DNA of 64,000 bases from Gammaproteobacteria bacterium (lineage in GTDB: Bacteria; Pseudomonadota; Gammaproteobacteria; Tenderiales; Tenderiaceae), in the NCBI GenBank assembly GCA_016200485.1, contig JACQEP010000012.1:1-64000 (forward strand), given 5' to 3'. Below, in pieces: positions 9,753-55,537 of this stretch (its first letter is position 1; each line of letters begins with the position of its first letter). Under the pieces are notes generated by a model, which had not been told where the DNA came from, searched no databases, and saw nothing but the letters and a program-made list of their open reading frames with translations. The translations under genes were made by a program, and so were the position numbers.

Positions 9753-9870
9753 GGGTGGCGACCCACGCCCGCCATACCCCGGCACACGAGTCCACTACTA
9801 CCGTTGCTCCCTTCCGGGCCTGGCGGGGTTTGCAGTGTATCGTTGCGAAGTGACCGACGTGAGCCACCAT
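9753..9870 (-). ncRNA. ffs: 4.5S RNA, bacterial signal recognition particle RNA
   Basis: The minus strand carries the universal SRP domain IV sequence CAGGCCCGGAAGGGAGCA with the GGAA tetraloop at about 9805-9822. The flanks pair into the long hairpin: GGTGGC at the 5' side (near 9868) with GTCGCCACC at the 3' side (near 9754), and AACCCCGCC with the GGGGTATGGCGGG strand. About 115 nt, the short bacterial form. It sits just upstream of dnaX, the conserved location. A TATACT -10-like box lies about 10 bases further upstream (about 9888), which would give a short 5' precursor. Confidence 0.93.
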
Positions 9871-50877: not shown

Positions 50878-51005
50878 GGTTCACTCCGAAATTCGTATCC
50901 TGATGTTACCTTAGCCCCCTTTTTGCCGCCACAGGGCCGCATGGATTTACCCTTGTTCAGGGGCTGTCTATTTACTCTAGTAGGGGTGCCCGTCCGGGCC
51001 GGGGG
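50878..51005 (-). promoter_or_regulatory. leuA leader RNA with GC-rich hairpins (putative attenuator)
   Basis: Between the leader stop and leuA the minus strand can form CTGCC-CTCG-GGCAG (overlapping the last Leu codons), GCCC-GGAC-GGGC and a longer AGCCCC...GGGGGCT pairing close to the leuA ribosome binding site. No T-run follows any of them on this strand, so either Rho or translation control rather than an intrinsic terminator would be needed. Structure assignment is by eye. Confidence 0.45.
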
Positions 51006-51119
51006 TCATTGTCTGCCCGAGGGCAGCAGCAGGTTCAGCAGAAGAGATTGGCGCAACAACGCAACCATCACCGGGCGGTGACAGCAGGCATTCATCGTGT
51101 TGTTGGCGTTAAAGTTCAT
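51006..51119 (-). CDS. leucine-rich leader peptide upstream of leuA
   Basis: A 37-codon ORF, ATG 51119 (or ATG 51122) to TGA 51006. Its second half reads ALLRQSLLLNLLLPSGRQ: eight leucines within twelve residues, as in amino-acid biosynthetic leader peptides. It lies about 20 bases after a predicted transcription start and about 130 bp before leuA. Leu codons are TTG, CTT and CTG. The expected role is ribosome stalling under leucine shortage, altering the downstream RNA fold. The sequence is unlike E. coli LeuL, so it would not be found by simple homology. Confidence 0.72.
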   Translation of the reverse strand: MNFNANNTMNACCHRPVMVALLRQSLLLNLLLPSGRQ

Positions 51120-51145
51120 CATTCAATCACTTGGGTCAGTATTTC

Positions 51146-51174
51146 ACTATACTGCTGCCAATAAAGAGAATCAA
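51146..51174 (-). promoter_or_regulatory. sigma70-like promoter of leuL-leuA
   Basis: On the minus strand TTGATT (51169-51174) and TATAGT (51146-51151) are separated by exactly 17 bases. The -35 box overlaps the pssA stop codon. Transcription would begin near 51139, about 20 bases before the leader ATG. This allows leuA to be controlled separately from the upstream ilv genes. Confidence 0.65.
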
Positions 51175-51923
51175 CCCTCGCCCTCGCCATGATGTTTGCG
51201 TTCGGCCCGGCGCTTGCGCAACTGGATCAAGGTCAGGGCAGGCCCGGACAAGGCATAGATCAAGGCGATAGCAAATAACACCCGTGGCGGGTCGCCTGCC
51301 ACCAGGACAAAGATCGCCGCCACCAGCAGAATCTTGATAAAGGGCACCTGACCTTTGAGATCAAGGTCTTTAAAGCTGTAATAACGGATATTACTGACCA
51401 TTAATATGCCAGCACTTACCGTCAGGATCAGGGCCGGGATCACCAGATGCTCACGGGGCCATCCTGCATCATCACCCCACCACACCAAGCCCGCCAGCAA
51501 GGCCGCAGCGGCGGGGCTGGCCAAACCCTGGAAATAGCGCTTGTCGATGGTTCCGACCTGGGTATTGAATCGGGCCAGCCGCAGTGCCGCACCCGCAGCA
51601 AAGACGAAGGCGCCGGCAAAACCGATCTTGTGCAGTGGCACTAAGGCCCATTGATACATCACCAGCGCCGGCGCCAGACCAAACGACACCATATCCGCCA
51701 GACTGTCATATTCCTTGCCGAAATCGCTTTGGGTATTGGTCATGCGTGCGATACGACCATCAAATGCGTCCATAATCATGGCAAAAAAGATGGCAATCGC
51801 CGCTGCCTCGAAACGGCCGTTCATGGCCGAAACCACGGCATAAAATCCGGCAAACAAGCCTGCCGTGGTAAACAGATTGGGCAGTAAATAAATGCCGCGG
51901 CGGCGTTTGATTTCAGGTTCCAT
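51171..51923 (-). CDS. pssA: CDP-diacylglycerol-serine O-phosphatidyltransferase
   Basis: Membrane enzyme forming phosphatidylserine, the precursor of phosphatidylethanolamine. The CDP-alcohol phosphotransferase motif DGRIAR...GKEYDSLAD (about residues 54-75) is intact. About eight hydrophobic segments; length 250, the PssA type II class. A basic, hydrophilic C-terminal tail follows (KRRAERKHHGEGEG). Placed between ilvC and leuA, a common proteobacterial arrangement. Confidence 0.94.
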   Translation of the reverse strand: MEPEIKRRRGIYLLPNLFTTAGLFAGFYAVVSAMNGRFEAAAIAIFFAMIMDAFDGRIARMTNTQSDFGKEYDSLADMVSFGLAPALVMYQWALVPLHKIGFAGAFVFAAGAALRLARFNTQVGTIDKRYFQGLASPAAAALLAGLVWWGDDAGWPREHLVIPALILTVSAGILMVSNIRYYSFKDLDLKGQVPFIKILLVAAIFVLVAGDPPRVLFAIALIYALSGPALTLIQLRKRRAERKHHGEGEG

Positions 51924-55369: not shown

Positions 55370-55391
55370 ATCACATCCAAATAATCCAACG

Positions 55392-55418
55392 CAAAAAAAG
55401 CCCGCACCCGCGAGCCCC
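55392..55418 (-). terminator. intrinsic terminator (attenuator candidate) before ilvI
   Basis: On the minus strand GGGGCTCGCGGGTGCGGGCT folds into a 7-8 bp stem (two G-U pairs) and is followed at once by a seven-T run. It sits inside the predicted ilvI 5' leader, downstream of the promoter and 23 bp before the ATG, so it can only act as a conditional terminator. The upstream leader holds another palindrome (GCTACTGATTCAGTAGC, 55456-55472) but only a 7-codon ORF (MRLTARY) without branched-chain codon runs. Confidence 0.65.
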
Positions 55419-55499
55419 TTCTTAAGCCTGCGATTCTACGCAATAAACTTCGGAAGCTACTGATTCAGTAGCGCGCCGTCAAGCGCATGAAACAAGCGG

Positions 55500-55510: not shown

Positions 55511-55537
55511 AAAAAGACCCTTGCCAGGGGATCGATA

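Follow-up and report, generated by a model that had tools for sequence, protein, structure and literature searches.

A candidate leucine-sensing leader without an intrinsic terminator upstream of leuA in Gammaproteobacteria

Leucine leaders are textbook knowledge through Escherichia coli, where the enterobacterial leu operon attenuator (leuL; the Leu leader of Rfam) has a terminator and an antiterminator. In the tna operon (TnaC) and in Rho-dependent leaders, an upstream open reading frame (uORF) is followed by RNA that has no intrinsic terminator. Proteobacterial attenuators were reportedly surveyed by Vitreschak in 2004, and some of the leaders described here may already be listed there. The leuA attenuator of Shewanella has a terminator and an antiterminator (PMC2659441). 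The actinobacterial LEU element, located 5′ of leuA, is described in the text of Seliverstov et al., 2005 (PMC1262725) as a terminator-free leader peptide region with a Leu codon run and a pseudoknot, in which Leu codons pair with the leuA Shine-Dalgarno sequence (SD) to form the base stem. In Sinorhizobium meliloti, the leader peptide gene trpL is leaderless (PMC7298713). Finally, loss of the tRNA pseudouridine synthase TruA raises LeuA 4.2-fold in Pseudomonas putida, and in enterics the his operon, which is under attenuator control, is derepressed when this enzyme is lost (PMC7822408).

Here, we analyzed a 64,000-nucleotide stretch of gammaproteobacterial DNA (hereafter, the window) in which a leucine-rich uORF lies between pssA and leuA, and compared it with leuA loci across the class. 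The features of the locus, in the direction of transcription, are:

51923..51171, minus strand: pssA, the upstream flank (NCBIfam equivalog, as is leuA)
51146..51174, minus strand: sigma70-type promoter TTGATT-17-TATAGT, whose -35 overlaps the pssA stop codon; equivalents stand before nearly all related leaders
51122..51006, minus strand: leader uORF MMNFNANNTMNACCHRPVMVALLRQSLLLNLLLPSGRQ, 38 amino acids long if started at the first ATG, 37 if at the second
51024..51059, minus strand: Leu codon run LLRQSLLLNLLL (8 Leu in 12 residues), the proposed sensor; the run is kept in relatives
51013..51026, minus strand: first hairpin (hp1), CTGCC(CTCG)GGCAG, covering the last Leu codons; the uORF stop codon is 3′ of it
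50988..50999, minus strand: second hairpin (hp2), GCCC(GGAC)GGGC, a derived form found at the same place in L003-L008 and L010
50902..50909, minus strand: GTAACATC block before the leuA SD; GTAA.ATC is identical in 8/8 aligned family leaders, with C or T between
50884..50887, minus strand: leuA SD, GGAG, with no complementarity of at least 4 nt to the Leu codons
49339..50877, minus strand: leuA, 2-isopropylmalate synthase, the putatively regulated gene (NF002087, 925.8 bits; TIGR00973, 739 bits)

A preliminary description of this DNA had singled out positions 51006 to 51174, which indeed cover both the promoter and the Leu-rich ORF between pssA and leuA. The ORF has the 37 codons then reported (38 from the first ATG), with its leucines at residues 22, 23, 27, 28, 29, 31, 32, and 33 (codons 51059..51024, minus strand). 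The hairpin CTGCC-CTCG-GGCAG was rightly placed over the Leu codons (51026..51013), and, as the description also held, no T-run terminator precedes leuA: no terminator-like site was found on the minus strand between the uORF and leuA in the window. The promoter TTGATT-17-TATAGT was recovered as well, matching at 9 of 12 positions and as the sole match in 800 bp (0.5 expected), with the gap to the ORF revised from about 20 bases to 23-26 nt between -10 and ATG. Measured from the second ATG (51119), the gap is 26 nt and thereby resembles the 25-27 nt of most leaders in the family. An NCBIfam search with the leader peptide gave no match. The GTAACATC block may be the -10 of a second promoter or belong to a hairpin as its 3′ arm. 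Family members have a longer block, TTTGCCGCTGATGTGGCCCTGCTGTAACATCAGC, just 5′ of the leuA SD, of which the window keeps only GTAACATC; this longer block resembles both a promoter (TTGCCG-17-TAACAT) and a hairpin, the latter with changes in L003 and L008 that compensate each other. Elsewhere in the window, a terminator-like hairpin with T5 lies upstream of ilvB (start 55369) at 55516..55533 (minus strand), and nearer to ilvB GGGCTCGCGGGTGCGGGC is followed by seven T (55370..55420, minus strand), which may mark an attenuator, or else a terminator, in the leader of ilvB. A bacterial small SRP RNA is located at 9763..9859 (minus strand; Rfam RF00169, 68 bits).

The uORF could be a chance reading frame whose Leu run merely reflects composition, but the combined Leu and hairpin score was matched by only 0.2% of 1000 dinucleotide shuffles of the window region (P=0.002), and its Leu count was reached by none of 500 shuffles. 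The family members, moreover, share the position, the promoter, and the hairpin. What speaks for a chance ORF is that the N-terminal half of the uORF is not conserved and that the class covariance model R1, built from 12 distant leaders, scores the window leader only marginally, placing it at the top with 13.9 bits (E 0.019 for the window) against chance matches of 12.8 and 12.3 bits elsewhere in the window. The predicted fold of the whole leader is no more stable than that of shuffles (z=+0.80). On balance, we regard a chance origin as highly improbable.

Among relatives, we examined ten family members with a complete leuA upstream region (window included). The preliminary description had staked its reading on the Leu run persisting in close relatives, and this held for 8 of the 10 (window counted), whereas L009 and L027 are without the leader. 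Most family peptides end in LLPSGR or near it, their hairpin reads CTGCC-UUCG-GGCAG, and the family members score 20-28 bits with R1. Substitutions among L005, L008, and L010 are distributed 8/9/32 over the three codon positions, a third-position bias that is expected of a translated frame; class-wide, the bias is weaker (97/100/145 over 20 pairs).

The same plan was found in many of the 80 named leuA loci that we compared, drawn from Chromatiales, Ectothiorhodospira, Methylophaga, Methylococcales, Acidiferrobacterales, and many metagenome-assembled genomes. A score of at least 9 was reached by 56% of 103 leuA upstream regions, whereas shuffles attained it in 0.9% of cases and randomly drawn genomic windows in 0.3%. 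The class leaders begin with a strong sigma70 promoter (mostly TTGGCA-17-TATAGT/TATATT), and the gap between the -10 and the ATG of the uORF is bimodal: either 6-8 nt (25 loci) or mostly 25-30 nt, the window being of the second type. With a gap of 6-8 nt, the predicted +1 coincides with the A of the AUG or adjoins it, so these uORFs would be leaderless, as judged from predicted start sites. The class peptide varies at its start and is rich in Leu at its end, and its sequence is not conserved. Over its last Leu codons lies hp1 (UGCC..GGCA), usually with the stop codon in the loop; because this position varies within the class, we treat it as usual rather than required. In the window and its family, the stop codon is 3′ of hp1. 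The preliminary description had proposed looking for covariation in related genomes, and hp1 does show compensatory variants: UGCC-GGCA, UGCGCC-GGCGCA (peptide end LLRR), UGCCGC-GCGGCA, and UUGCCC-GGGCAA (LLAL). Since hp1 is compensated while the peptide end shifts from LLP* to LLRR* or LLAL*, it is the RNA structure and the Leu codons that are kept, and not the peptide. A conserved stalling peptide (RLLP*) was considered and rejected, as the end varies while the hairpin covaries.

Downstream, the class hp2 consists of a GGCG loop on a variable stem (C-G, G-C, or U-A at the fourth pair), followed by a linker and then ACGC. Across 95 hp2-type hairpins from related sequences, in which independent events are fewer than the counts, a GGCG loop is accompanied by downstream CGC in 84 and by CGU (G.U) in 7, and a GACG loop occurs in 3, all with CGU (A-U); the last one is a chance stem at a locus that has no leader. 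These combinations support the prediction that the hp2 loop and its downstream partner form an H-type pseudoknot. The hairpin and pseudoknot are present in most strong class members and absent in several others besides the window, whose hp2 has neither the GGCG loop nor the ACGC partner. In four Methylophaga-like loci (L016, L079, L088, and L101), hp2 is absent, and the stretch between hp1 and the leuA SD is closed off by long-range pairing of CAGACTT with AAGTCTG (CAGACTT...AAGTCTG). The near-invariant GGCG loop and its ACGC partner in relatives would suit a structured leader that directly binds a protein or small molecule, with the uORF secondary; we find this improbable, given that the window's family retains the Leu run and hp1 but no pseudoknot. 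Based on the comparison of these sequences, we consider the window leader to be a derived, divergent member of the class-wide leuA leader that is without the pseudoknot. This assignment is based on its position, the leader (a uORF ending in a Leu run directly 5′ of leuA), the promoter, the presence of hp1, and the 20-28 bits of its family members, and not on its own R1 score.

In a blind search of 369 class genomes, R1 matched at E<=0.001 in 85, nearly always once per genome, and 79 of the 83 matches that were fetched lie directly 5′ of leuA, the exceptions being L129, L184, L191, and L193. In a sample of the phylum, matches beyond the class were weak (23-26 bits) and had no leuA adjoining them except at L195, where a distant homologue (31% identity) is found on the same locus; the weak matches in other classes away from leuA look like chance. 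With 79 of 83 matches adjoining leuA and only weak ones outside the class, the element is leuA-specific and, as far as tested, class-specific. A search of Rfam 15 gave no match above gathering and, at a low threshold, nothing relevant; an element whose blind-search matches lie almost only before leuA is thus absent from Rfam 15. At one exception, L129:1380-1600 (genome G095), we observed a complete second class leader, comprising promoter, Leu uORF, hp1, hp2, and ACGC, with no adjoining leuA; the other copy in this genome, L141, precedes leuA.

We propose, with a probability of roughly 80%, that the leuA 5′ leader senses leucine starvation by way of a stalled ribosome. Transcription would start near 51139, and a ribosome would translate the uORF. 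When Leu-tRNA is ample, the ribosome would pass the Leu codons to the stop codon and depart, allowing hp1 to fold and keeping leuA low. When Leu-tRNA is scarce, it would pause on the Leu codons, holding hp1 open and covering the Leu stretch, and leuA would go up. The output is something other than an intrinsic terminator. The tests of mechanism described below led us to commit to a stalling-based Leu sensor, to favor, for the class, a translational output tentatively, and to hold a Rho-dependent one as the less probable choice.

The preliminary description had read the arrangement as that of a leucine attenuator, in a Rho-dependent or translational variant. The Leu leader before leuA is supported, an E. 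coli-type switch between 2:3 and 3:4 pairing with a U-run is not, and both of the proposed variants stay among the candidate outputs. A classical attenuator with 1:2, 2:3, and 3:4 pairing would account for one behavior of the window, where placing a ribosome mask on a single Leu codon lets the 2:3 pairing (CGGGC:GCCCG) prevail, with loss of hp2. Most of the family, however, is without this switch, there is no U-run, and over 62 loci the complementarity between the 3′ arm of hp1 and the 5′ arm of hp2 equals that of permuted pairs (P=0.51). With 2:3 pairing at the permuted level and no intrinsic terminator, this mechanism is largely refuted, and we give it very little credence.

For the class, the most likely output, which we put forward tentatively, is that the free Leu-codon stretch occludes the leuA ribosome-binding site. 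Complementarity of at least 6 nt between SD and Leu codons was found in 34 of 69 loci, compared to about 20 expected, with an energy difference at P=0.0008 (permuted and codon-order-shuffled controls). In a hold-out of 61 loci, the only set that was deduplicated (elsewhere, the statistics leave shared ancestry partly out of account), the counts were 24 vs 16.4 expected (P=0.006), and the codon shuffle gave P=0.024. Striking pairs include CAGGAGTAG/CTACTCCTG in L020, and GGAGTAG/CTACTCC in L070 vs GGAGCAG/CTGCTCC in L061. The SD is predicted to become more accessible when the Leu codons are occupied by a ribosome (0.35, up from 0.21), compared to 0.25 with the ribosome at the stop codon; masking any stretch raises accessibility somewhat. 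In the first set, the leader N-terminal control is likewise below permuted, so that composition accounts for part of the excess of SD-Leu pairing; in the hold-out this control was not significant. In the window, pairing is not above that of codon-shuffled leaders (P=0.93 for the SD and 0.34 for the wider region).

Alternatively, the leader might act through Rho: with leucine, the ribosome would leave at the uORF stop, and Rho would load on C-rich, G-poor RNA past hp1 and hp2 and end transcription before leuA, which a stalled ribosome would prevent. Intrinsic terminators are present in 0 of 69 leaders, C exceeds G in 54 of 69 over the 60 nt after the stop codon and in 49 of 65 after hp2, and the window has a 78-nt span in which C/G is as high as 1.6. 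This excess of C over G keeps Rho-dependent termination among the candidates, as a rather unlikely one. However, leuA upstream regions that carry no leader share the bias in a milder form (C>G in 26 of 38, P=0.025), the difference between the two groups is modest (median maximum 1.89 vs 1.65), and a rut site is not provable from sequence.

Compared to known systems, the class leaders share with the leuL attenuator and that of Shewanella leuA (PMC2659441) a Leu-rich peptide before leuA and the same inferred signal; those attenuators have a terminator and an antiterminator, whereas the present leaders have neither and no Rfam match. As in the TnaC and Rho-dependent leaders, the RNA beyond their uORF has no intrinsic terminator, but they show no sign of a nascent-chain arrest sequence, as the peptide end varies freely while the hairpin is kept. 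The many class members with a -10 at 6-8 nt before the AUG, whose RNA is predicted to start on the AUG or immediately beside it, resemble S. meliloti trpL; the window, with its gap of 23-26 nt, does not, and the class start sites are predicted ones. By analogy, the rise of LeuA in P. putida would fit a leader-controlled leuA in that species. A further parallel is the LEU element, which belongs to another phylum and which we liken by its description (PMC1262725). As described there, it has in common with the leaders found here a leader peptide with a Leu run, a pseudoknot (in the class), and no terminator. Its Leu run pairs with the leuA SD around the pseudoknot in a defining stem, whereas here such pairing is a class-wide statistical excess that is absent in the window, and no hairpin like hp1, its loop holding the stop codon, is among the features described for it in that text (PMC1262725). 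Much of Gammaproteobacteria may thus use a leucine leader other than that of E. coli, one that combines a stop codon inside a hairpin loop with a covarying pseudoknot and does without a terminator, and the present set of sequences allows testing of ribosome stalling that acts via the start site or Rho and not via a terminator. Taken as a whole, and more speculatively than any preference stated above for a single output, we suggest that non-enteric Gammaproteobacteria might possess a separate structured Leu leader, often with a leaderless uORF, a stop codon in the hairpin loop, and an H-type pseudoknot, which the window's family has lost, and that this leader would be a terminator-free leuA switch in which Leu codons mask the ribosome-binding site, in parallel to the actinobacterial LEU element.
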